A stretch of 64,000 nucleotides of DNA, from NCBI RefSeq assembly GCF_030814475.1, contig NZ_JAUSVF010000001.1:1199001-1263000 (forward strand), in the 5' to 3' direction. Of this stretch, positions 6,492 through 25,070 are shown one piece after another. This DNA is from Pararhizobium capsulatum DSM 1112 (GTDB lineage Bacteria > Pseudomonadota > Alphaproteobacteria > Rhizobiales > Rhizobiaceae). The notes under the pieces were generated by a model. That model was not told where the DNA came from. It was given only the letters and a program-made list of their open reading frames with translations, and made no database searches. The translations under genes were made by a program, and so were the position numbers. Numbering within the stretch: the stretch's first letter is position 1; each line of letters begins with the position of its first letter.

Positions 6492-6515
6492 GACCACCGG
6501 CGTTCGCCGGTGGTC
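6492..6515. terminator. Compact hairpin between minus-strand genes
   Basis: GACCACCGGCG (6492-6502) is the exact reverse complement of CGCCGGTGGTC (6505-6515), leaving a tight turn. It lies downstream of the integrase stop on the minus strand, next to the 8-bp repeat array. It could terminate integrase transcription, though no T-run follows. Confidence 0.4.
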
Positions 6516-6576
6516 AGGATGTCAGGATGTCAGGATGTCAGGATGTCAGGATGTCAGGATGTCAGGATGTCAGGAT
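6513..6576. repeat. Eight tandem copies of an 8-bp unit (GTCAGGAT)
   Basis: Eight perfect consecutive GTCAGGAT units fill 64 bases and end one base before the stop codon of the integrase (6578-6580, minus strand). The first unit overlaps the right arm of the preceding hairpin. With no spacers it is not CRISPR. Such arrays vary in copy number by slipped replication; a role as recombinase binding sites is speculative. Confidence 0.9.
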
Positions 6577-6577
6577 T

Positions 6578-7198
6578 CTATAATTCAATCTGCTCAGCAA
6601 TCCTTAGGGCGTCATCCACTTCGACGCCAAGGTATCGGACGGTGCTTTCAAGTTTTGCGTGACCCAGCAGAATCTGGACGGCACGAAGGTTTCCAGTCTT
6701 CTTGTAAATCTGCGCAGCCTTGGTTCTCCTCATGGAGTGGGTTCCGTAGGCGCTGCTTTCCAACCCGATAGAGGCGACCCATCGATGCACAATCCGGGCA
6801 TATTGCCTTGTCGACAAATGCCCCGTTGTTTTTCGGCGGCTCGGGAACAGATAGCTGCCCCCATTCCTTCGTATGAATGGAAGCCACGCAACGATTGCGG
6901 TCTTCGTTTGTTCAGTGACCTCAAACTGCACAGGCCGCTTCGTTTTTTTCTGGATAATGGTCGCGCGATCTCGCATCGAACTACCAGACCAAAGGTCCTC
7001 AATCCTTAGTCTGACGAGGTCGCATGCACGGAGCTTGCTGTCGATGGCGAGGTTGAAGAGTGCCAACTCCCGGATCGCTCCGCTCATCTCAAGGCGAACG
7101 CGGATGGACCACACGTTCTTGGGCTGAAGTGGGCGCTTCTGGCCGACCAGAATGCCTTTGTTCCACGGATATCGAGTACGAAAAATGGCGGTGTCCAT
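6578..7198 (-). CDS. Short tyrosine recombinase / integrase
   Basis: A 206-residue tyrosine recombinase made almost only of the catalytic domain. All expected active-site residues can be seen: Arg57 in SKLRACDLVRL, a Lys near 85 (IQKKTKRP), His154 and Arg157 (THSMRRTKAAQ), His180 (LLGHAKLESTVRYLG) and the nucleophile Tyr189. The ATG at 7198 has GGAG about 9 bases upstream. The SAM-like core-binding domain is greatly reduced, as in the widespread short integrase-like proteins of rhizobia. It marks the right end of the small-gene accessory array. Confidence 0.85.
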   Translation of the reverse strand: MDTAIFRTRYPWNKGILVGQKRPLQPKNVWSIRVRLEMSGAIRELALFNLAIDSKLRACDLVRLRIEDLWSGSSMRDRATIIQKKTKRPVQFEVTEQTKTAIVAWLPFIRRNGGSYLFPSRRKTTGHLSTRQYARIVHRWVASIGLESSAYGTHSMRRTKAAQIYKKTGNLRAVQILLGHAKLESTVRYLGVEVDDALRIAEQIEL

Positions 7199-8778: not shown

Positions 8779-10269
8779 ATGACCAAAATCATGGTCCAGT
8801 TTGACCGAGACGGAGAAAACATCCGAACCTCGCGCGCCATCTACCTCGGATTGCGGGACCAGATCGCAACGGGTGTCTATGCTGTCGGAGACAGGCTGCC
8901 GTCGACGCGGGCATTGGCGGAGGAACTCGGCGTTTCCCGCACGACCGTGACGGCCGCCTTCGAGCAGCTCACTTCGGAGGGCTATGTCCATGTGCGGCAT
9001 GGCGCGCGAGCCGTCGTCGCGGGCAATGTCGCCGCCAGTAGCGATATCTCCAGGCTCACACGGCCCAGCTCGACAGGGAGACTGTCGGCCTATGCGGCTC
9101 GCGCCATGGAACTACCCTCCATTGTCCCGAGCGCAACAGGACCGCTCGACCATGACTTCCGGTATGGGGATGTCGCGCCCGGCGACTTCCCGAAACTGGC
9201 ATGGCGGAAGTCATTGGGGTCGGCGGTTCTCGCCCATCGGGACAAGCTGAGCTACGGACATCCCGCCGGCAGTCCAGCCTTGCGGCAGGCTTTGCAGGGA
9301 TATCTGTGGCGGGCACGTGGCATCAGGTGCACAGCCGAGCAGATCGTCATCGTCAACGGTTCACAGCAGGCGTTGGACCTTTGTGCGAGGGTCCTTGTCG
9401 ATCCGGGCGACAAAGTGCTGTTCGAAGAACCCTGCTACGCGATGGCCCGCAACGTCTTGGTCACCCTTGGAGCCGTGCCCACCGCCATCAATTGCGATGA
9501 GGATGGTTTGGACACGTCCAGCCTGCCTGATCCTGCTGGCTACGCGCTTGCCTGCGTCACGCCGAGCCATCAATTTCCCCTGGGAGGCGTTCTTTCTATC
9601 GGTCGTCGGCGGCAACTGGTGGAATGGGCCACGGCCGGAGACGCATTTATCGTTGAAGACGACTATGACGGCGAATACCGTTACGATGTACGCCCGATCC
9701 CGCCGCTCTATCTCGCAGGCCGCGGACGGGTGATCTATGTCGGGACGACCTCGAAGATTTTGTCTCCGACATTGCGCCTGGGCTATCTCGTCTTGCCCGA
9801 GCCACTCATCGAGCCGTTCGTGCTGTGCAAGCAAATCATGGACCGGCACACTTCCATGTTTGAACAAGAGGCGCTCGCCAAGTTCATCGAGTCCGGTGGC
9901 TACGAGCGGCATGTGCGAAAAATGAGACGGGCCAACGCCGAGCGTCGGGGCATCTTTCTGGATGCCATGGTCGCGGCCTTCGGGGAAAAGATCGAGATCA
10001 TCGGCACGTCGGCGGGTCTTCATGTGGTTGTCTGGTTCAATGAGTTTGGCCGTCGGGACGAGCAAAACATTGCGGACACCGCCCGGCACAACGGCATTGG
10101 AGTCTATCCAGTCTCGCGGTTGTACTCCAATCCGGTGGAGCGACGTGCCGGGTTCATCTTTGGATATGCGTCCATGCCCATTCGCCAGATACCAAGCGGT
10201 GTCGATAGACTTCGCCAAGTCATGGCGCAACAGGCTGCATCCAGCGCCGTCTTCGACGCGGGGGCATGA
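8779..10269 (+). CDS. MocR-type PLP-dependent transcriptional regulator
   Basis: A 496-residue fusion. Residues about 10-80 form a GntR winged helix (SRAIYLGLRDQIATGVYAVG and LAEELGVSRTTVTAAFEQL). Residues about 110-490 form a fold-type I aminotransferase domain, with SYGHPAGSPALRQALQGYL, VNGSQQALDLCARVL, the EDDYDGEYRYD block and the PLP lysine in VGTTSKILSPTLRLGY. MocR proteins sense PLP or an amino compound. It is transcribed divergently from paiB, the most likely target. Confidence 0.93.
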   Translation: MTKIMVQFDRDGENIRTSRAIYLGLRDQIATGVYAVGDRLPSTRALAEELGVSRTTVTAAFEQLTSEGYVHVRHGARAVVAGNVAASSDISRLTRPSSTGRLSAYAARAMELPSIVPSATGPLDHDFRYGDVAPGDFPKLAWRKSLGSAVLAHRDKLSYGHPAGSPALRQALQGYLWRARGIRCTAEQIVIVNGSQQALDLCARVLVDPGDKVLFEEPCYAMARNVLVTLGAVPTAINCDEDGLDTSSLPDPAGYALACVTPSHQFPLGGVLSIGRRRQLVEWATAGDAFIVEDDYDGEYRYDVRPIPPLYLAGRGRVIYVGTTSKILSPTLRLGYLVLPEPLIEPFVLCKQIMDRHTSMFEQEALAKFIESGGYERHVRKMRRANAERRGIFLDAMVAAFGEKIEIIGTSAGLHVVVWFNEFGRRDEQNIADTARHNGIGVYPVSRLYSNPVERRAGFIFGYASMPIRQIPSGVDRLRQVMAQQAASSAVFDAGA

Positions 10270-10329
10270 CCGCTCATGGCGGGCGCTTTTGGGCCATTAC
10301 GGGTTTCGGCCGCCCAAAGCGGCCTTCGT

Positions 10330-10815
10330 TCAGGTGTAGGCGAGAAGCCGCCCCGAAAGTATCACGCCGATCCACGCCACCATGGACACGACTGCCGCCG
10401 CACGAGCAGCGATCGGCGTCACCGCGGCTTCGGCCCACTCGTCGACCTGACGGTAGACGCCGTAGTGGAATATCGGGACGTTTAAACCAGCCAGGATCAG
10501 AAGACCGAGCTTCCATGGCGCGGCTCCGGTGTTGGCGACTACTGTCGCCTGCGCGCTGAGCAGGACGATCCCGGTGACGAAGGCTATGGCAAGCCCCACA
10601 TGCGAAACGGGCAACAGATGCCGCGCCGCCGTGGGCACGCTCACGACGCGGTTTGCAACGCCCAGGAGGCGGAGGTCAAATGCGAAGGCGGGGCCGACCA
10701 GAAGGGCGATGCCAAGGATGTGGATGGCTTCAAGCACTGGGTAGAGGTACTGGGCATTCCGCACCATGTCGCCCAGCGCTGAGCCCTGCAGCAGCATAAG
10801 CAATGAGTTGAGCAT
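10330..10815 (-). CDS. DUF6644-type inner-membrane protein
   Basis: A 161-residue protein with four hydrophobic segments: YLYPVLEAIHILGIALLVG, a segment around VGLAIAFVTGIVLLS, LGLLILAGLNVPIFHYG and VVSMVAWIGVILSGRLLAY. It begins MLNSLLMLLQGSALGDMVRN and matches the DUF6644 group, whose two-histidine pattern (one in EAIHILG, one in NVPIFHYGVY) could bind heme by analogy with DUF2214-like proteins; that is inference. It is the last gene of the seven-gene minus-strand operon, just after a DUF6152 protein, its usual partner. Confidence 0.8.
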   Translation of the reverse strand: MLNSLLMLLQGSALGDMVRNAQYLYPVLEAIHILGIALLVGPAFAFDLRLLGVANRVVSVPTAARHLLPVSHVGLAIAFVTGIVLLSAQATVVANTGAAPWKLGLLILAGLNVPIFHYGVYRQVDEWAEAAVTPIAARAAAVVSMVAWIGVILSGRLLAYT

Positions 10816-16022: not shown

Positions 16023-16937
16023 ATGAATGGGAGTTGGCGGTTGGAGCGGCAGGACCTTAACGACATGTTGTCGTTCATCGCAGTGGCCGAGCAACGGAGC
16101 TTCACCAAGGCTGCCGCAAAGCTTGGGACGTCGCAGTCTACGCTGAGCCATACGATCAAACAGCTAGAGGGCCGGCTGGGCCTCAGATTGCTGACGAGGA
16201 CCACACGCAGTGTTTCACCGACGGATGCGGGGGAGCGGTTGCTCAAAGCCTTCGTACCCCGTCTTCGGGAGCTTGAAGGCGAGCTCGAAGACCTGATGTC
16301 GGCCCGTGACAAACCTGCCGGGGCGGTCAGGATCACTCTTTCCGACCACGCCCTGGCTACCGTCGTTTGGCCGAAGGTGCGGCCGCTTCTTCTGGATTAT
16401 CCCGATATCAAGCTTGAACTCAACATCGACAACGGGTTCAGGGACATTGTCGAAGAACGCTTCGATGCGGGCGTTCGTTTGGGCGAGAGCCTCGACAAGG
16501 ACATGATCGCCGTGCGCATTGGTCCGGATTGGCGGCTCGTTGCAGTTGGCGCACCTTCGTATTTCATGAACCATCCCGTTCCCGAAGTCCCGCAGGACCT
16601 GGTGGAGCACGTCTGCATCAACACCCGGCAATCCCGATCGGGCGGCCTCTATGCATGGGAGTTTGAGAAGGCCGGCCGCGAACTCCGTGTCCGGGTCGAT
16701 GGGCAGATCACGCTGAACAGCTCGATCGCCCAAGCCGAGGCGGCCGCGGCAGGCTACGGAATCGCCTACGTTCCCGAAAACCTCGTGGAGCGCCAGATCG
16801 CGGAAGGCGAGCTCGTCCAGGTTCTCGACGATTGGTGCCCGATGTTCACGGGCTACTACCTCTACTATCCTAGTCGACGTCAGAACTCGGCAGCGTTCCT
16901 GCTGATCATGAACGCTTTGCGGTTTCGGGCCGAGTGA
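16023..16937 (+). CDS. LysR-family transcriptional regulator
   Basis: About 304 residues with the LysR layout: N-terminal winged helix (DLNDMLSFIAVAEQRSFTKAAAKLGTS, then QSTLSHTIKQLEGRLGLRLL and TRTTRSVSPTDAGERLL), linker helix and periplasmic-binding-like effector domain. The start is ambiguous: ATG at 16023, or TTG at 16017 whose spacing from AAGGA (16002-16006) is better. It is divergent from the seven-gene operon 10330-15918 and is its probable activator. The effector is unknown. Confidence 0.93.
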   Translation: MNGSWRLERQDLNDMLSFIAVAEQRSFTKAAAKLGTSQSTLSHTIKQLEGRLGLRLLTRTTRSVSPTDAGERLLKAFVPRLRELEGELEDLMSARDKPAGAVRITLSDHALATVVWPKVRPLLLDYPDIKLELNIDNGFRDIVEERFDAGVRLGESLDKDMIAVRIGPDWRLVAVGAPSYFMNHPVPEVPQDLVEHVCINTRQSRSGGLYAWEFEKAGRELRVRVDGQITLNSSIAQAEAAAAGYGIAYVPENLVERQIAEGELVQVLDDWCPMFTGYYLYYPSRRQNSAAFLLIMNALRFRAE

Positions 16938-16953
16938 CTTCGTGATGCTAGGA

Positions 16954-16968
16954 TGACTGCTATTGGCG
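16954..16968 (+). repeat. Dispersed repeat copy 2, left part (split by IS)
   Basis: TGACTGC then TATTGGCG, continuing across the insertion sequence into GGCGCGAAGCTGCCGAGCG at 18546. Removing the element and one GGCG copy restores a sequence very like that at 5960-6000. Confidence 0.5.
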
Positions 16969-18545
16969 GATATCGTTGAAAAACTCGACGGATTATCCGC
17001 TCACACGCCCTTTTCGGTCTTTTGGGCGGTGCACTATGCTGCGATCTGCCCACGCCTTAGCGCAGGGTATCGGTCGATGCCGCCCTCAAGCGGCGATGGC
17101 ACCGCATGGCGGCATCTGAGGCCTGAGTTTGGCCAGCCTCCTCAGGTTCTGTGCGGTTGCGGCAAGCAGGAATTCGTCTCTCGCACCACACGGCCCTCGA
17201 AGCCTTAAACGTGCCATCCGTAGTATGCGCTTGAGGTGAGCGAAGAGCATTTCGACCTTCTTTCGACGATGCCGTGACTGCTCATACTCCGGTGTCTTGG
17301 CAATCGCTCGGGCGACATCGCGTGCATCCTCGTTGAGATCGCGCGGTACTTTGCGCATAGGCATGTTCGGGCAGCATCGAGGCTTCAGTTCACACTGATC
17401 ACAGTCCTTCTTGCTGGCACGATAAAGCCGGGTTCCCTCGGCCGTGATCCCCGATCTGGGTGGGTCGTAAGTGCGTTGGAATTGTTTCAGCTCCTTTCCG
17501 GCAGGGCAAAGGTATTGCTCCTTCTCGGCTTCCCAGGTGAAGTCGGAACGCGAGAAGGTGCCATCCGTCCGCTTCGACTTGTCGAAGACCGGAATGTGCG
17601 GCGCGATCTCCTTCTCGTTGACCAACCAGGCGAGGTTGTCGGCAGAACCGTAGGCACTGTCGGCCGCGAGGTAATCGGGCCGCAAGCCGAAGCGGTTCTC
17701 GGTCCTGCCGAGCATTGTGCGGGATGCACCGACCTCCGCCTGGCGGATCGCCCGTGTCGCCTCCACATCCAGAATGACGCCGTGGTCTGTATCGATCAGA
17801 TAGTTGGTCGCATAGGCGAAGAAGGCGTGGCCTTTGTGGGCACCGGTCCATTGGGCGGCCGGATCAGACGAGGAGATGAACTTCGGCGTGACCGGCGAGG
17901 CAGCGCCGAAAGCAGCATCATCGAGAACAGCCAGATATTCCTGTACCGAGCGTCCCGCATCTTCTTTGGCTTCCCATTCCGATCCTGGTACCGAGCGCTG
18001 CTTGTTTGCATCCGCCGCGATCAAGCTGGCATCGACTGCAAATCCTTCCGTACCAACCAACCCTTGAGAGAGGCAGCGCTCCACTACCGTTTCGAACATA
18101 TGCCGCAGGATGTCGCTTTGCCGGAACCGGCCATGGCGGTTCTTCGAGAAGCTTGAGTGATCAGGGACCTTGCCGTCCAGACCGAGGCGGCAGAACCAGC
18201 GATAGGCGAGATTGAGGTGGACCTCTTCGCAAAGCCGTCGCTCCGAGCGAATGCCCATGGAATAGCCGATGATCAGCATTCGCATCATAAGCTCGGGATC
18301 AATCGAGGGGCGACCCGTGGCGCTGTAGAAAGGCTTCAAGTGCGCTCGTACGCTGTCGAGTTCGAGATGGCGGTCGATCCCGCGCAGCATGTGGTCGGCA
18401 GGAACGTGATCATCAAGGCAGAAGTCGTAGAAGAGCTGCGCTGGAGCTGTCTGGCATCCCATCATCACTCAATCCCCCGCAAATCAATGCGACGATTGAA
18501 TCATGACATCCCAATGCCGACAACGGTTAGTTTTTCAACAGTATC
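16969..18545. mobile_element. IS1182-family insertion sequence, complete
   Basis: The ends are GATATCGTTGAAAAACT on the left and, read inward from the right, GATACTGTTGAAAAACT: imperfect inverted repeats matching at 14 of 17 positions. GGCG lies directly outside each end (16965-16968 and 18546-18549), a likely 4-bp target duplication. The element is about 1577 bp with one transposase gene on the minus strand. The repeat interrupted by the insertion supports these limits. Confidence 0.8.
17086..18468 (-). CDS. IS1182-type transposase
   Basis: A 460-residue DDE transposase. The N-terminal region has DDHVPADHMLRGIDRHL and FYSATGRPSIDPELMMRMLIIGYSMGIRSERRLCEEV. The catalytic part shows the first Asp in GFAVDASLIAADANK, the second in YLAADSAYGSADNLAWL, and a Cys-rich zinc-like stretch (KKDCDQCELKPRCCP). 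The closing RRKKVEMLFAHLKRILRM has the catalytic Glu. Uninterrupted and full length, so probably active. It fills the element bounded at 16969 and 18545. Confidence 0.93.
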   Translation of the reverse strand: MMMGCQTAPAQLFYDFCLDDHVPADHMLRGIDRHLELDSVRAHLKPFYSATGRPSIDPELMMRMLIIGYSMGIRSERRLCEEVHLNLAYRWFCRLGLDGKVPDHSSFSKNRHGRFRQSDILRHMFETVVERCLSQGLVGTEGFAVDASLIAADANKQRSVPGSEWEAKEDAGRSVQEYLAVLDDAAFGAASPVTPKFISSSDPAAQWTGAHKGHAFFAYATNYLIDTDHGVILDVEATRAIRQAEVGASRTMLGRTENRFGLRPDYLAADSAYGSADNLAWLVNEKEIAPHIPVFDKSKRTDGTFSRSDFTWEAEKEQYLCPAGKELKQFQRTYDPPRSGITAEGTRLYRASKKDCDQCELKPRCCPNMPMRKVPRDLNEDARDVARAIAKTPEYEQSRHRRKKVEMLFAHLKRILRMARLRLRGPCGARDEFLLAATAQNLRRLAKLRPQMPPCGAIAA

Positions 18546-18572
18546 GGCGCGAAGCTGCCGAGCGTTTGACGC
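18546..18572 (+). repeat. Dispersed repeat copy 2, right part
   Basis: GGCGCGAAGCTGCCGAGCGT then TTGACGC, 25 of 27 bases identical to 5974-6000. It is the continuation of the copy beginning at 16954, cut by the insertion sequence. Confidence 0.5.
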
Positions 18573-18786
18573 GTTGTGATCGGTTGGCGAAACGGTGAAC
18601 GATATTCCTGTGCGCATGCGCCAGACTCGCATGCCAACCCAGCAAAAGGAATCCCATACCGAACTCTTATGTCAGGCGGTAACCACTAGCTTGTCGAGGA
18701 GGCGCGTGCAGAGGCGGTTTTGGGTGTCGGGCTGCGCATTGCTCCGGTTCATATCGTTCCCCTCAAGTATCATGAACTCGGCGGTT
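18573..18786. other. Degenerate stretch beside the IS element
   Basis: No intact gene seen. Short frames on both strands look like shadows or leftovers of the neighbouring decayed gene. Confidence 0.35.
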
Positions 18787-19214
18787 TTAATTCTTCCGGG
18801 TTCTGTATTGGTCGGCGGCAAATCGGCCGGCGGCGGCGTTGACGAGACCGCTCCAAAATCCGGCCAAGCCGCAGACGCGATCGATGACGTGATTCGCCGG
18901 CTTTGCGTTGAAGGGGCCGCGGAATTGCCGCACATTGTCGTCTTTGTTTCTATCGTTGCTAGCGGTTAGCCGGCCGGAAGCACACCGACAATTACAGGAA
19001 GGCGTCGTCGTCGAGACGGGCGTCGTATAGCCCCCGGGCCGATGCATTGATGCATCCGGTTGCCTTCGTGCCGCTGCGCCCTTGGAGACTTCAGCGGTAC
19101 GAGGTTGTGGCCGACGCCGAGATCGTAAATGAAGGCTTCGTCCTCCGGACCGAGGACGACTTCGCCGCCGGTCTTACAATGACGAAGACCCTTGTTGGGC
19201 GCTTGTGGGGCCAT
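18787..19214 (-). pseudogene. Decayed PcfJ-like domain gene
   Basis: Three minus-strand frames together spell a PcfJ-type protein. The first gives GLRHCKTGGEVVLGPEDEAF and VPLKSPRAQRHEGNRMHQCIG (PcfJ has a Cys at the corresponding CVG). A one-base shift in a G run near 19030 leads to YDARLDDDAFL, then a TAA in place of an expected aromatic residue. A later frame gives NVRQFRGPFNAKPANHVIDRV. At least two frameshifts and a stop make it nonfunctional. PcfJ domains occur in plasmid and mobile-element genes. The recognition is by motif memory. Confidence 0.5.
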
Positions 19215-19444
19215 CAAGCTTGACTGCGCCCGATACTGAGGGTGCGAGGATCGTTTCCAGTATGGTAATGGATGGGTTATACTGCGGGTCATCATGCGCG
19301 GGCCTCCTATCGCGATAACTTCCAAGCCGCCGGGTCGCCGCACCGCTTACCCTTTATGCCAATGAAAAATGGGTTTTCGTCTCTTAAAATTGATGGTTTC
19401 GGGCATAACGTCTAGGAATTTGCGAGACAATTGGCGGAAAAAAC

Positions 19445-20176
19445 ATGACCACAAAGATGCATGCCCACAACAAGTCAGTTGCGCTAGCTGTTTGGACGGC
19501 CTTCCTACTGATGGGGCTACCCAGTTCTTCGTTCAGCGAAACATTTGAGCAAACTCAGAAATTCTGCAAAATTTCTCAAATGTTGATCCCGATCTTTCTT
19601 GATGGCGGCAAAATATCTGGTGAAAGTGTTTGCAAGGCAAGTGGCGTCGCAAGCTATAACTGCACCAGCAACATGAGCCTCGGACAAGGCATCTGCATGG
19701 CAAGCGGCGTTGCAAGCTATAACTGCACCAGCAACATGAGCCTCGGACAAGGCGTCTGCATGGCAAGTGGCGTCGCAAGCTATAACTGCACCAGCAACAT
19801 GAGCCTCGGACAAGGCGTCTGCATGGCAAGTGGTGTCGCAAGCTATAATTGCACTAGCGGCATGAAATATGCTCAAGGCGTCTGTATGGCAGGTGGGGTC
19901 GCGAGCTATAATTGCACAAGCGGCATGACGCTGGGAGCCGCCGTATGTATGTCGGGCGGCGTCGCAAGCTACCAATGTTCAGGTGCAGGCCATGACGACC
20001 TCGGTGAAGGGATATGTCTTGCTCTGGGCGGCTCTAGCACGCAATGTTCAGGGATGCCTGTTCATCAGGCCGTATGCGGTTTCACAGGAAACTGCAAAGG
20101 TGATGACGCGTTATCAATCGCCGTGTCCATGGTGGAAGCCTGTGGGCCTAAAGTCCTGCATTTCGGCATCGAATAG
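19445..20176 (+). CDS. Exported Cys-rich protein with 21-residue tandem repeats
   Basis: A 243-residue protein. After a signal peptide (hydrophobic core near residues 10-27, cleavage near SFSETF) and a short linker come five regular units of 21 residues (residues about 65-169; core GVASYNCTSNMSLGQGVCM). Two diverged ones follow (GGVASYQCSG and LGGSSTQCSG). Cysteines alternate with spacings of 9 and 10 residues throughout. A final two-Cys segment ends MVEACGPKVLHFGIE. The regular Gly/Ser/Cys pattern suggests a disulfide-stapled solenoid outside the cytoplasm. No known family recognised. Confidence 0.75.
   Translation: MTTKMHAHNKSVALAVWTAFLLMGLPSSSFSETFEQTQKFCKISQMLIPIFLDGGKISGESVCKASGVASYNCTSNMSLGQGICMASGVASYNCTSNMSLGQGVCMASGVASYNCTSNMSLGQGVCMASGVASYNCTSGMKYAQGVCMAGGVASYNCTSGMTLGAAVCMSGGVASYQCSGAGHDDLGEGICLALGGSSTQCSGMPVHQAVCGFTGNCKGDDALSIAVSMVEACGPKVLHFGIE
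19637..19951 (+). repeat. Five tandem 63-bp coding repeats
   Basis: Units begin at 19637, 19700, 19763, 19826 and 19889. The first and third differ at one base and the second and third at two, while the fourth and fifth have diverged. This indicates recent expansion by duplication, with the unit length kept at exactly 21 codons. Confidence 0.9.
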
Positions 20177-20220
20177 ACAAATATCGCAACGATCTGAGTG
20201 TATACGCGAGTTTAAGGTCT

Positions 20221-20601
20221 ATGAAAGAAGCTCACTTGCCTGAAATAAACTTAAAAAGTGACGGCACGCTGAGTTATGATAACGGCTTAGTGACAGCCGT
20301 TATTGAAGACCATCAAGATGGCTGTGTGATCCTTGAGTTTTGTTCCCGCTTTCCCGGCCAAGGAAATGCCAAGCGAACTCTAAACTGTCTAAAAGATACC
20401 TATGGCCCATTAATTGTAGTCGATCCAGGCACTGAAGAATATGCGCCTGAGTCTTTTAACTTTTGGCGACACATCGTACGGTCGGGGCTGGTGAAGATGA
20501 TGTTAGATACCCAACGCAATCTTCTTTACAAGGAGGGGGAATGGCTCAAAGAGGCCATTGACGAGACAGCGTATCCTGCGTTGTTTGCTGAACTGACTTA
20601 A
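20221..20601 (+). CDS. GNAT-like hypothetical protein
   Basis: A 126-residue acidic protein. The segment CVILEFCSRFPGQGNAKRTLNCLKDTYGPLIVVDPG, followed by SFNFWRHIVRSGLVKMM, has the layout of a GNAT acetyltransferase: an acyl-CoA-binding Q/R-x-x-G-x-G/A-like loop, then a beta strand and helix, then a late FW motif. Phage and island proteins of this kind often lack proof of activity. The base composition is clearly more AT-rich than the core genes, fitting foreign origin. It is 44 bases after the repeat protein, same strand. Confidence 0.55.
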   Translation: MKEAHLPEINLKSDGTLSYDNGLVTAVIEDHQDGCVILEFCSRFPGQGNAKRTLNCLKDTYGPLIVVDPGTEEYAPESFNFWRHIVRSGLVKMMLDTQRNLLYKEGEWLKEAIDETAYPALFAELT

Positions 20602-20647
20602 TATAAAAGGCATTTGTTACGTGCCGTGAGTGGCTCGCGGAGGCGGC

Positions 20648-22258
20648 TTAGGCCGCGTCCTCGTTGGACATTGTAAGCTTCTTCTGGCGTGCGTACTCAC
20701 CGAGAACGGCATCGCACCAGACTTTGATAGCTTCGCGCTTGAGAGCAAGGTGCTGCGCACCGCCATAGGCCAATTGCGTCACCTTTGCCTGTCGCTGCCG
20801 CAAGAAGTCGGCGCGCTGCCGTTCGGTGGCGGAGACCGCCATAGCCTCCTTTTCCTTTACCTCGTGGGCTAGGATGACGGATGCGCCGCCAGGAATACCC
20901 GCCTCGTCGAGAGCCTTAGTGATGGCGCGACGCAGGTCCTGAAGGCTCCACCAGTCGATACCGGCCTCGGCCAAGAGGTCCCGCCGTTCAGTCCGCCGGG
21001 GAATGACTTTCGTTCTTTCTCGTTCTACGTCCTGAAGCAGTTCGTCCCGGCCTGCGAGACGGTAGAGGACACGATACACGCCCGAGGCGGAGACGTGGAC
21101 GTCTCCTTTCTTGCGTTCTGAAGGAAAAGCCCATTCTTGCGTACTCAAGCCGTGCTTCGCTTTTGACCTGAACCGATCGACCATTTCCCAAGCCTCAGCG
21201 GGGATAGGAAGCGCGTGCGCGCGCCCGGCCTTCATGACATCCTTGGACCATGCGGCCAACCTCCATCCCACGACCTTGTCGTCGACAACGTCGTGGCCGA
21301 GTAGGCTCATCCCCGCGTTTGCACGCTGACACGTCAGTACAAGCCACCAGAGCCCGGAAAGGGCTGCGTGTCCTACGCCCGCGATCCTCTGGGCGCGTCC
21401 CGGCAGGGGCTTGTCGAGATACTGCTCGGCGAGGAGCAGCGTAGACACGATCGCCTCGATTTCGGGCCTTCGGTCACGTGGCCTGATCTCGTAGGGAGCA
21501 GTGACCATATTCCACCATGCGTCGCCGACCAGACCAGACTTGCTCGAATTGTTCTGGGCGCACCACGTCATCACCGCGCGGAAGTACGTAACGACCTTCA
21601 TTGCGCCAGCCGGTGACTTTCCAACGGTCCGCCTGACCTCGTCACGAACATCTTCGATGTCGCCCCGTGTGATGTTCACTGCATGGGTATCCATCAGTTT
21701 TGTGAATGCGGGCCGATTGAATGTCAGCTTGTAGTCCTTGACCGTATTAGCTCCGATGCGGTCCGTCTCTCTGGTCGCCGGATCGGTCTTTGCCCGAATT
21801 GTTTCCTCAACACACTCCCGCAGCGTCCATGTCGTCGGCCGCGCAGCTTCAATAGCCTTGCGCGTTGCTTCTTCAGCTTCGCGCTTGACGATCTCGGCGG
21901 CCGCCTTTTTGACGTCGCCGCTCCCAACTCCATTGCCATGGTAGACGCCGAGGAATGTCTTCACGTCCTCCTTGGTCTTCCCGTCGTTGAGCATGGACCT
22001 GACAGCTCTTGCCAGCCCTCGGACCTTTGACAACGCGGTGAGCGTCCTGTCGCCCTGGGGATACACGTAGCCGATGGTGACAGATGAGTTGCGGAACCTT
22101 ACAACCCACGCCGCAGTCCGCCCCTGCATCTGTAAGCGCAAGCCAGTTTCATTGGCATCCGGGAGCGTGGTGATGTCGCTCCCGAAGCCTTCCCTCTCGG
22201 CTTTATACGCTGCCTGGCGGACGTGGTGATCCTCTATCGCAAACTTCACTCTGCCCAT
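20648..22258 (-). CDS. Large tyrosine site-specific integrase
   Basis: A 536-residue integrase. The N-terminal DUF4102-like arm-binding region has TGLRLQMQGRTAAWVVRFRNSSVTIGY. A core-binding domain (NTVKDYKLTFNRPAFTKL) and catalytic domain (WWLVLTCQRANAGMSLL, WSLQDLRRAITKAL, ILAHEVKEKEAMA, TQLAYGGAQ with the putative Tyr) follow. The usual His of the HxxR motif is Gln or Asp here, an unusual active site. Its start faces the tRNA-Phe remnant at 22471-22523, about 210 bases away, the normal arrangement for an island integrase at its attachment site. Confidence 0.85.
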   Translation of the reverse strand: MGRVKFAIEDHHVRQAAYKAEREGFGSDITTLPDANETGLRLQMQGRTAAWVVRFRNSSVTIGYVYPQGDRTLTALSKVRGLARAVRSMLNDGKTKEDVKTFLGVYHGNGVGSGDVKKAAAEIVKREAEEATRKAIEAARPTTWTLRECVEETIRAKTDPATRETDRIGANTVKDYKLTFNRPAFTKLMDTHAVNITRGDIEDVRDEVRRTVGKSPAGAMKVVTYFRAVMTWCAQNNSSKSGLVGDAWWNMVTAPYEIRPRDRRPEIEAIVSTLLLAEQYLDKPLPGRAQRIAGVGHAALSGLWWLVLTCQRANAGMSLLGHDVVDDKVVGWRLAAWSKDVMKAGRAHALPIPAEAWEMVDRFRSKAKHGLSTQEWAFPSERKKGDVHVSASGVYRVLYRLAGRDELLQDVERERTKVIPRRTERRDLLAEAGIDWWSLQDLRRAITKALDEAGIPGGASVILAHEVKEKEAMAVSATERQRADFLRQRQAKVTQLAYGGAQHLALKREAIKVWCDAVLGEYARQKKLTMSNEDAA

Positions 22259-22470
22259 GTTGTCCGTATCCCCTTGGAAACCCCTGCCACTCTCTACCGT
22301 CTCTCTACCGTTTTAAAATTGGTTGACAAGGGCTTCAGTGGCAAGATTTTTTGCCTTAGATAAGTCTAATATTCAGGCTCAAAGTGTTAGCAATGTCCTT
22401 GAACGAAAAGGGATTTATCAAATAGCATCGTTGACAGGCAGGGGGCTGTCAACCTATTTGTATTTCTAGA

Positions 22471-22523
22471 CAGCAGGATTGAAAATCCGCGTGTCGGTGG
22501 TTCAAATCCGCCTCCGGGCACCA
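22471..22523 (+). other. 3' remnant of tRNA-Phe gene, likely integration (att) site
   Basis: The sequence has the 3' half of a tRNA with anticodon GAA: anticodon arm GGATT-GAA-AATCC, variable region, the T arm GGTGG-TTCAAAT-CCGCC and acceptor end TCCGGGCACCA. The 5' half and D arm are missing, so no tRNA is made from it. Islands that integrate into a tRNA gene duplicate its 3' end in this way. One integrase flanks each side (20648-22258 and the decayed 22594-23043), pointing to two successive insertions. Confidence 0.75.
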
Positions 22524-22593
22524 TTTTTAGCCCTTGTTATGTTTCGAGTTTTTCACGTTTTTCTTGGCTCCTGATTTTTCTAGTTTGACAATT

Positions 22594-23043
22594 TCAAACT
22601 GTCGGTTTGACAACTTTCGTTTTCCGTTTGTTCAATTCAGCCTCGAAATCGGTGACCGCAGACGTCGCTCGTGTCGTCATGTCGGCCCATCTCGAATAGT
22701 GTTTTGCCATCGCTTCGGTGGCGTGGCCGAGCATCAGCGCGATCGTGCCGTTGTCTTTGCCCATTTCTGCCAAGATGGTCGCTACCGTGTGCCTGAGGCC
22801 CTTTAAAGTAAGGCCCGGCTGGATCACCTTCGGTCTCCAGTTTGCCTTTCACCTTTGCCCAGCTCGTACTGAAACCGTTATAGGTCCAGGGACGGCCCAG
22901 CTATTGGCGCAGAGCGCGAGGGCGTTGTGTTTTGGTGCGCGGGCTATCGCACTTTCAACGGGCTCGAACAGCGGTAGATAGATAGGGCGCCCCGTCTTGT
23001 TTCGCCGGGTGTGAACATCTCGACGCGTATACGGCCAAACGAA
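22594..23043 (-). pseudogene. Frameshifted phage-type integrase, C-terminal part
   Basis: Three minus-strand frames join into one integrase C terminus. The pieces are TRRNKTGRPIYLPLFEPVES and ARAPKHNALALCANS, then RPWTYNGFSTSWAKVKGKLE, then GLTLKGLRHTVATILAEMG with TIALMLGHATEAMAKHYSRW, holding Arg-His, His and the Tyr nucleophile. The frame changes near 22910 and 22830, and no N-terminal half is visible. It ends 70 bases from the tRNA-Phe remnant. Confidence 0.75.
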
Positions 23044-23079
23044 CGTTCGAGCAGCGCCGGTTGCTTCAGACTATCCACC

Positions 23080-23265
23080 AGATGCCCGATACGGCCCTCG
23101 ATCCTCGCCATTCTATAGAAGAGATCTTGGGCCGGCCGGTCACTCTCTACGAAGGTCTGAGGGGCGATACCCGACGGGAGCGGGTAAGGGAACTACCGGC
23201 CAAGGTGGAGCTCGATACTTCTTTGGCAAACCGCTACCCGCTTTCGCTGTCGGGCGGTCAGAAGA
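23080..23265 (+). pseudogene. Internal fragment of a peptide ABC transporter ATPase
   Basis: The frame reads QMPDTALDPRHSIEEILGRP, then LYEGLRGDTRRERVRELPAKVELDT, then RYPLSLSGGQK, a well-known stretch of Dpp/Opp-type ATPases from the Q-loop region up to the LSGGQ signature. After GGQK the frame turns into unrelated sequence, and the Walker A half is absent. A clear truncated scrap between the decayed integrase and the KaiC-like gene. Confidence 0.75.
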
Positions 23266-23561
23266 TAGCTGGTGATTTGTTTGCCCTCGCACGAAAGGCG
23301 CAATTCTCTCCATCGCGATTTGAAGGTGTGACGGTTAGTGGACGCGGTGTTAGTGCCATTGCACGCCACCGTGTTGGTCATCACATTTGCAATCGGCCTG
23401 ATACCGTCGTCACTGTTTGTTGTCAGGGCCGGCTCGTAGTGCGTCTCCTTTCCACTGAAGTGGGCTGGCTCCTTAGATGACAACGATAATGACAATCGGT
23501 TGAACCGCAGTCTTTGTTTTCCGAATCTTCGTCCTATTTTCTCCTGAAATCAGGAGGTAAA

Positions 23562-25070
23562 ATGAACGAAGTCTCGAACGATAAGGCGCTCACCGGTGTT
23601 GTCGGGCTCGACGATATATTGTCAGGTGGTCTCACGCGTCGTCACGTGTTTCTCCTGGAAGGCTCGCCCGGCACAGGTAAAACCACGATCGCCTTGCAGT
23701 TCCTTCTCGAAGGCGCGGCTCTGAAGGAGCGGTGTCTCTACATCAGTCTTTCGGAAACGGAAGAAGAGTTGCGCGACAGTGCCCGTTCTCACGGCATCGA
23801 ATTTGGCGACACGATCGAGATTTTCGAGCTCGTTCCCCCTGAAAGCCTTCTTGATGCGGACCAGCAGCAGAGCCTTCTTTATTCCTCGGACCTCGAACTC
23901 GGCGAGACCACGAAGCTGATCTTTGAGGCGTTCGAGCGGGTGAAACCGCATAGGGTGGTGATCGACAGCCTTTCGGAAATCAGGCTTCTGGCGCAGGGCT
24001 CGTTGCGCTATCGCCGCCAGATTCTGGCGCTGAAGCATTTCTTCTCGCGATCGGATGCGACTGTTCTGCTTCTCGACGACATGACCTCCGACAATCTCGA
24101 CAAGACCGTCCACAGCGTGGTTCACGGCGTCATTCATCTGGAGCAGCTCGCGCCGGACTATGGAGCGGAGCGCCGACGGCTGCGGGTCATCAAATATCGG
24201 GGCCAGTCCTTTCGCGGCGGCTACCATGATTTCGTTATCAAGACTGGCGGCGTGTCGGTGTTTCCGCGACTGCGCGCGGTCGAGCATCGAACCGGTTTCG
24301 AGCGGACGACGCTGAAAAGCGGTATCCCGGAATTCGACGATCTGCTCGGCGGCGGTATCGAGCGAGGTTCGAGTACGCTTCTGATCGGCCCGGCTGGAAC
24401 GGGCAAAAGCCTGTTTACGCTTCAGTTCGTAGATGCGGCAGTCAGGCGCGGGGAAAAGGCGGCGGTCTTCATCTTCGACGAGGAACTCGGGCTGCTGTTT
24501 TCCCGGACGAAGACGCTTGGGCTCGATCTTGAAGAGCTTCGCGACAATGGCTCCATTCATATCGAACAGCTGGATGCTGCCGAACTTTCGCCCGGCGAGT
24601 TTTCGCAGCGGGTCAGGGATCGCGTTGCAAGTTTCGACGCAAAGACCGTCGTGATCGACAGCATCAACGGCTATCAAGCATCGATGCCGGAGGAGAATGC
24701 CCTCATCCTCCACATGCACGAATTGCTGCAGTATCTGAACCGCCAGGGCGCCAACACCTTCCTGACGGTGGCGCAGCATGGCCTTGTGGGAGACATGAAA
24801 TCGCCGGTGGATGTCACCTACCTTGCGGATACGGTCATCCTGCTGCGGTATTTCGAGGCCATGGGCAAGGTTCGGCGGGCGGTGTCGGTGATCAAGAAGC
24901 GGACGGGCAAGCACGAGGATACCATCCGGGAATTCCGCATTGACAGTACCGGTCTGACGCTCGGCGAGCCGCTTTCAGGCTTCCAGGGCGTGCTTCGCGG
25001 GGTGCCGACCTTCGTCGGGGAAAGGCAGCCGTTGCTTCCGACTGCAGACAAAGGTGACGACAATTCCTAA
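23562..25070 (+). CDS. Two-domain KaiC-like ATPase
   Basis: A 502-residue cytoplasmic protein with two RecA/KaiC domains. The first has Walker A GSPGTGKTT (residues 34-42), Walker B RVVIDSLSEI and SLSETEEEL. The second has Walker A GPAGTGKS (276-283), FDEELGLLFSR with the Glu pair, and Walker B TVVIDSING. Start: AGGAGG 4 bases before ATG at 23562. Such proteins occur outside cyanobacteria without KaiA/KaiB and usually next to a histidine kinase, as here: the next gene overlaps it by 17 bases. A timing or signal-relay role is inferred. Confidence 0.92.
   Translation: MNEVSNDKALTGVVGLDDILSGGLTRRHVFLLEGSPGTGKTTIALQFLLEGAALKERCLYISLSETEEELRDSARSHGIEFGDTIEIFELVPPESLLDADQQQSLLYSSDLELGETTKLIFEAFERVKPHRVVIDSLSEIRLLAQGSLRYRRQILALKHFFSRSDATVLLLDDMTSDNLDKTVHSVVHGVIHLEQLAPDYGAERRRLRVIKYRGQSFRGGYHDFVIKTGGVSVFPRLRAVEHRTGFERTTLKSGIPEFDDLLGGGIERGSSTLLIGPAGTGKSLFTLQFVDAAVRRGEKAAVFIFDEELGLLFSRTKTLGLDLEELRDNGSIHIEQLDAAELSPGEFSQRVRDRVASFDAKTVVIDSINGYQASMPEENALILHMHELLQYLNRQGANTFLTVAQHGLVGDMKSPVDVTYLADTVILLRYFEAMGKVRRAVSVIKKRTGKHEDTIREFRIDSTGLTLGEPLSGFQGVLRGVPTFVGERQPLLPTADKGDDNS

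Follow-up and report, generated by a model that had tools for sequence, protein, structure and literature searches.

The window analysed here, a stretch of 64,000 nucleotides from the genome of Pararhizobium capsulatum DSM 1112, contains at 19445..20176, on the forward strand, an open reading frame (ORF) of 243 amino acids plus stop; its product is a cysteine-rich protein made of seven repeated units, for which a full-length homologue was found in Arenibacterium halophilum. Residues 1-31 (19445..19537) form a predicted Sec signal peptide: judged by eye, they include a basic N-region, a hydrophobic core and the residues S-F-S preceding E32, and inspection by eye of the same N-terminus revealed no lipobox. 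The signal peptide is followed by an N-terminal cap (residues 32-63; 19538..19633), which carries C41 and C63 and shares with the homologue the motif FC-x2-SQML-x-PIFL-x-GG, and then by units 1-5, of 21 residues (63 bp) each (19634..19948), which were delimited by Tandem Repeats Finder (63-bp period, 4.7 copies, 90% match, score 428) and by unit alignment. The diverged unit 6 (23 residues, containing GHDDLGEGIC; 19949..20017), the equally diverged unit 7 (20 residues; 20018..20077) and the C-terminal cap (residues 212-243, with C217 and C233; 20078..20173) complete the protein; the two caps and the diverged units were defined by alignment with the homologue, to which the AlphaFold2 models were added for the C-terminal cap. 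All these features lie on the forward strand, and the lengths of the units after C63 are thus 21, 21, 21, 21, 21, 23 and 20 residues.

The cysteines are 18 in total, corresponding to 8.5% of the predicted mature protein, and consecutive ones are separated by 21, 9, 10, 9, 10, 9, 10, 9, 10, 9, 10, 9, 12, 9, 9, 5 and 15 residues. Between C21 of a unit and C10 of the following one (the CX9C segment), the intervening residues are nine in 7/7 cases, while the second spacing is 10 in units 1-5, and then 12 and 9 in the two diverged units. An earlier reading of this DNA, made from its letters alone (the sequence-only reading), had described a signal peptide followed by five 21-residue units and two diverged ones, with a strict alternation of 9 and 10 residues between cysteines; the units are confirmed and the start is signal-peptide-like by eye, while the alternation holds through unit 5 and is lost in the two diverged units. 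It is unlikely that the protein is a precursor processed into peptides at basic sites between the units, because the only such sites in the seven units are K64 and K141. The G+C content is 49.9% over 19300-20600, versus 57.9% over positions 1-22466 of the window and 59.8% on the right side of the presumed island boundary described below; counts of promoter-like sites (3 versus 1.6 in shuffled sequences) and of terminator-like sites (0 versus 2.6) were not informative.

A single homologue and the homogenisation of units

The homologue was identified in Arenibacterium halophilum (Rhodobacterales, Paracoccaceae), on contig NZ_VCPC01000002.1, at positions 9995-10714 of the locus L005 and close to the contig end. 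This locus was the sole return from a scan of 84,980 species genomes, which searched with exact peptide patterns of a single sequence and is blind to distant relatives. The encoded protein has 239 residues and is 59% identical to the repeat protein along its full length (138/235 aligned positions); a basic stretch and a hydrophobic core are also present by eye at its N-terminus, and the seven units have the same lengths and order, with both caps present too. The mature cysteines are an even and conserved set (18/18 aligned), with all spacings identical, and the homologue has one additional cysteine within its signal-peptide-like start. The identity at the other positions is 120/216, and at that rate the conservation of 18/18 cysteines would have a probability of about 2.5e-5. 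A whole-length open frame in which the cysteines are kept in two genomes indicates a translated protein under selection, and the full-length homologue rules out a random ORF or a low-complexity sequence. The possibility, raised by the sequence-only reading, that the number of repeats is an artefact of sequencing or assembly is judged unlikely, since an independent genome also has seven units.

An even and fully conserved number of cysteines is expected for disulfides. If the cysteines were instead reduced and metal-bound, the protein could, once exported, store thiols or bind metals, with which its cysteine content would agree; the lack of any CXXC motif in the protein and the regular spacing, together with the even, fully conserved number that disulfides would predict, argue against this function, which is regarded as very unlikely.

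Membership of a known repeat family, the other possibility that had been raised beforehand, found no convincing support in Pfam, NCBIfam or PHROGs. The best Pfam match, LysM_RLK (E 0.0082, over 14 residues), had 16.6 bits and stayed below the curated cut-off of 27; NCBIfam gave no match at E <= 1, and the best match in PHROGs (E 0.079, no curated cut-off given) is not convincing. The C-terminal part of both proteins reached a best E of 0.15 against Pfam, and a sequence search of the PDB at E <= 10 returned only a ribosomal protein chain (E 0.54). The search across genomes that had also been suggested provided one relative, through the exact peptide patterns, and no further accepted one. The genome sets used overlap, and the genome of the source or that of the homologue was included, except in the 279-genome class set and in the partner of the 149-genome set. 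A single-sequence search of 201 relatives, in which four genomes matched, the own genome being the only one of its genus, gave no accepted match besides the own genome; in a DNA search of the genus, no listed match in 25 other genomes covers the gene. No further accepted relative was found with the full-length profile in 394 genomes of the homologue's family and in 394 of the window's family, or with a two-unit profile in 398 genomes of the phylum and 149 of the homologue's order, and a C-terminal profile gave no accepted relative in 279 genomes of the class. Single-sequence and profile scans of viral contigs found no relative, and the homologue, used as a query against plasmids and phages, had no match at E <= 1.

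Six weak matches were rejected as chance: G155, G108 and G039, from the search of 201 relatives (E 0.004-0.009), G513 and G218, from the profile search of the homologue's family (E 9e-5 and 6e-4), and G742, from that of the window's family (E 8e-4). Their matched stretches contain 2, 1, 0, 3, 4 and 0 cysteines, respectively, and the cysteine repeat pattern is absent from all six. Opposite the G155 match there is a longer open frame (334 versus 166 residues), and the G108 match falls within a 565-residue frame, read as an ABC transporter ATPase; the stretches of G039, G513 and G218 are interrupted by stops, and G742 is a repeat protein without cysteines in the matched stretch. The tblastn matches to plasmids and phages, in seven records (E 0.05-0.8, 46-60% of the query, 25-29% identity), correspond to an unannotated stretch in a conjugation cluster, to TraN and to hypothetical or predicted proteins, and were rejected on E-value and coverage. 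In the literature retrieved on the family terms, no description of the family was recognised, and no paper was listed for Arenibacterium halophilum; the Knotted Solenoid paper (PMC13123833) was considered as a lead. The family looks real and rare, and is without description in the libraries and searches used.

Units 1-3 are 94-97% identical at the DNA level within the window gene, as had been noticed from the sequence, and 86-92% identical within the Arenibacterium gene; between the two genes, the identity of these units is 57-63%. Unit 4, ending with MKYAQGVC, and unit 6, ending with GHDDLGEGIC, are recognisable orthologues in both proteins, the front half of unit 4 that precedes the common MKYAQGVC being lineage-specific, and both have a charged residue at the beginning of unit 1. 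Across units 1-4, positions 1, 3, 5, 9, 11 and 13 have no residue in common between the window protein and the homologue; at positions 3, 5, 9 and 11, each protein has a single fixed residue, different from that of the other. From this comparison, the simplest reading is that units 1-3 were homogenised separately in each gene, by concerted evolution at a constant unit number. The recent expansion and the ongoing change in copy number that the sequence-only reading had proposed are not supported, because the homologue, too, has seven units, identically ordered and with units 4 and 6 orthologous; in the two species compared the number is constant at seven. Independent expansion to the same number is a conceivable alternative, the comparison being one of two sequences.

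Island setting and neighbouring genes

The repeat protein gene adjoins a tyrosine-type integrase gene located at 20648..22258 on the reverse strand (PHROGs E 4.3e-14; Pfam Phage_integrase E 0.0019, below the cut-off), the start of which is about 210 bp from the second copy of a transfer RNA (tRNA) gene, tRNA-Phe(GAA). This copy is a repeated tRNA 3′ end, at 22467..22529 on the forward strand, and represents the presumed island boundary (att); the two copies of this 3′ end are separated by 70,660 bp on the source genome contig and bound a segment of about 70.7 kb, in agreement with the island-borne position, next to an integrase, that had been proposed. In four genomes of the same genus the alignment on the left of tRNA-Phe(GAA) ends at the tRNA, with no continuation in the 2.1 kb compared on its far side, and little of the DNA on the right of the second copy, beyond the tRNA, matches beside tRNA-Phe in the same four genomes; because this DNA does not align, the evidence for the right border of the island consists of the repeat and the integrase. 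A C-terminal piece of a second phage integrase is found at 22597-22827, just outside the tRNA-Phe repeat. The presence of this piece, together with the non-aligning right side, suggests that more than one element may be present at this site and that it was probably used more than once.

Other observations concern the surrounding DNA. Plasmid DNA matches to the gene neighbourhood come mostly from Sinorhizobium, Rhizobium and Agrobacterium, which makes it probable that the source genome and Arenibacterium belong to different orders. An IS1182-like transposase (DUF772 and DDE_Tnp domains; the IS1182 name comes from plasmid annotations) is coded at 17086-18468, and at least 10 further copies of the element, 99-100% identical, are present in the same genome (query window 16900-25000). 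Eight perfect copies of the 8-mer GTCAGGAT, a possibly phase-variable repeat, lie at 6513-6576, flanked by a DUF7674 ORF on one side and a phage-integrase-like one on the other. On the right of the tRNA repeat, positions 23514-25070 code for a KaiC-like double ATPase, with matches of 70-77% DNA identity in seven genomes of the same genus, and the ORF after it resembles, by eye, a histidine kinase with a receiver. Near the homologue, at a distance of about 3 kb, L005 contains at 6871-7176, on the reverse strand, an unrelated ORF with 16-residue repeats rich in FWIDDGWIWGP.

Downstream of the repeat protein gene, 44 bp past its stop and on the same strand, the ORF list includes a frame for 126 amino acids (20221..20601). 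The repeat protein could be an exported factor of bacterial antagonism and the product of this ORF its immunity or modifying partner, as the tandem arrangement of the two genes beside an integrase might suggest, and as would agree with the lack of accepted matches to either gene in other genomes (201 searched for the first and 151 for the second, own genome included). The 126-amino-acid ORF has no family match in Pfam, NCBIfam and PHROGs and was not found beside the homologue, where 418 bp of contig are available downstream, and the same three libraries matched no toxin domain in the repeat protein, all of which makes such a function quite improbable; adjacency is the sole positive evidence that the two genes form a pair.

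Fold and proposed role

The AlphaFold2 model of the whole protein is a beta-solenoid with about three strands per unit, in which the predicted local distance difference test (pLDDT) score of units 1-5 is 64-83 in 10-residue blocks. The periodicity of site variability, computed over ten canonical units, points to a period of 2, with a power of 4.96 at 180 degrees and a p value of 0.038 for the 21 positions; when restricted post hoc to positions 1-16, the p value is 0.002. At the helix period the p values are 0.65 and 0.70. The period-2 alternation favours strands in the unit positions concerned. Chou-Fasman propensities were indecisive. The beta-solenoid fold is plausible on these predictions: for the solenoid of the sequence-only reading, a model of low reliability and the period-2 conservation are favourable, while the model of a fragment and the hydrophobic moments, described below, are not.

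These data, together with the conservation of the cysteines, lead us to propose that the protein is an exported repeat rod, stapled by disulfides and presenting a binding face that recurs along it, and the probability that we assign to the whole statement is about 0.45; within it, export and disulfides are considered likelier, strands less so and binding least. The ORF, the repeats, the cysteine conservation, the unit homogenisation and the position beside an integrase and a tRNA repeat are shown by the data; we infer export, disulfides, rod and strands, while the binding role is a guess. The protein would leave the cytoplasm via Sec and then undergo oxidative folding into a short rod with disulfide staples; to this rod each of the seven units would contribute two cysteines, and its rigid module would be the invariant CX9C segment. 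The alternation of conserved residues, presumably directed inward, and variable ones, presumably directed outward, would fit extended strands, most simply a beta-solenoid, and gene conversion or unequal exchange would keep the outward positions alike across the units within a genome. The result would be a repeated multivalent face, specific to each lineage, as expected for the binding of a ligand on the surface of the own or of another cell; a structural or binding role outside the cytoplasm seems most likely.

Several results weigh against this proposal. The mean pLDDT of the whole-protein model is 52.9, and Foldseek found no match to this model at E <= 0.001; moreover, AlphaFold2 has been reported to yield confident false beta-solenoids for perfect repeats (PMC11795689). 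In a model of the fragment without units 1-3 (mean pLDDT 49.5), the chain becomes helical from residue 186, which includes the end of unit 6, unit 7 and the cap, and this helical region is mostly the better-scored part (51-65 for fragment residues 61-110, versus 41-48 for residues 1-60). The period-2 signal is weaker when distinct residues are counted (p 0.086 and 0.015) and disappears in windows starting at positions 11-13, and hydrophobic moments in 11-residue windows are mixed, with a strand period at starts 4-9 and a helix period at starts 14-19. Finally, no neighbour gene common to the repeat protein and its homologue was found, so the context offers no functional hint.

Part of this evidence would suit a helical or mixed strand-helix repeat array with a disulfide-closed loop, in place of a beta-solenoid, with a short helix from about M14 to A2/G4 of the next unit and with or without a strand at positions 4-12. 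Besides the helical portion of the fragment model and the helix-period moments, such an array would agree with the helical look, by eye, of DDLGEGICLALGG and DDALSIAVSMVEAC and with the C-terminal cap, which both AlphaFold2 models predict, with low confidence, to be helical; however, the variability over the unit has a period of 2 and not of 3.6, the fragment model retains strands in units 4-5 and at the beginning of unit 6, and each canonical unit contains three to five glycines (counted by eye), hence this array is considered rather unlikely.

Returning to the disulfide-stapled rod, it is rather doubtful that it represents an undescribed, very rare and horizontally moving family of exported beta-solenoids, with each 21-residue coil stapled by a disulfide of its own and an outward face rewritten by gene conversion in several coils together while the coil number and the core stay fixed; if so, concerted evolution would change a multivalent recognition surface. 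A disulfide-stapled solenoid would provide a small scaffold of bacterial origin that follows a simple rule, namely seven CX9C modules and a coil of 21 residues, and the comparison of the two species, in which the unit number is equal and the presumably exposed residues of three to four units are replaced together, would test how repeat proteins alter a multivalent surface at fixed length. Should the protein not be a solenoid, it would be a natural test case for the solenoid bias of AlphaFold2.

Comparison with known systems

Twin CX9C (CHCH) proteins consist of two helices with two CX9C pairs. The repeat protein resembles them in its cysteine pairs nine residues apart; however, it has seven CX9C segments, with a glycine in the middle, and CHCH was not among its Pfam matches at E <= 1. 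The likeness to the secreted cysteine-rich repeat peptides (SCREPs) is by description only, both being secreted, as predicted here for the repeat protein, cysteine-rich and composed of tandem repeats; SCREPs are a data-mined class and not a homology family (PMC6262176).

Beta-solenoid ice-binding proteins (3p4g; ChloroIBP) have coiled repeats, as modelled for the repeat protein, and ChloroIBP is described as secreted and disulfide-bonded (PMC4838330). They differ by their T-x-T array, the PDB sequence search gave no match to them, and the structural likeness is that of an unreliable model. An ice-binding beta-solenoid with an ordered outward face, corresponding to the ice-binding-like surface suggested by the sequence-only reading, is weakened because T-x-T is present in neither protein and because T11 of the window protein is replaced by P11 in units 1-4 of the homologue; with the structural model itself unreliable, this function appears extremely improbable.

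The closest comparison is with the Arenibacterium halophilum protein, with which the repeat protein has no neighbour in common among those found. The two differ in their homogenised unit sequence, for example IAGGGASYECPSTMSLGAGIC versus MASGVASYNCTSNMSLGQGVC, and are alike in the signal-peptide-like start, the seven units, the 18 mature cysteines and the caps.
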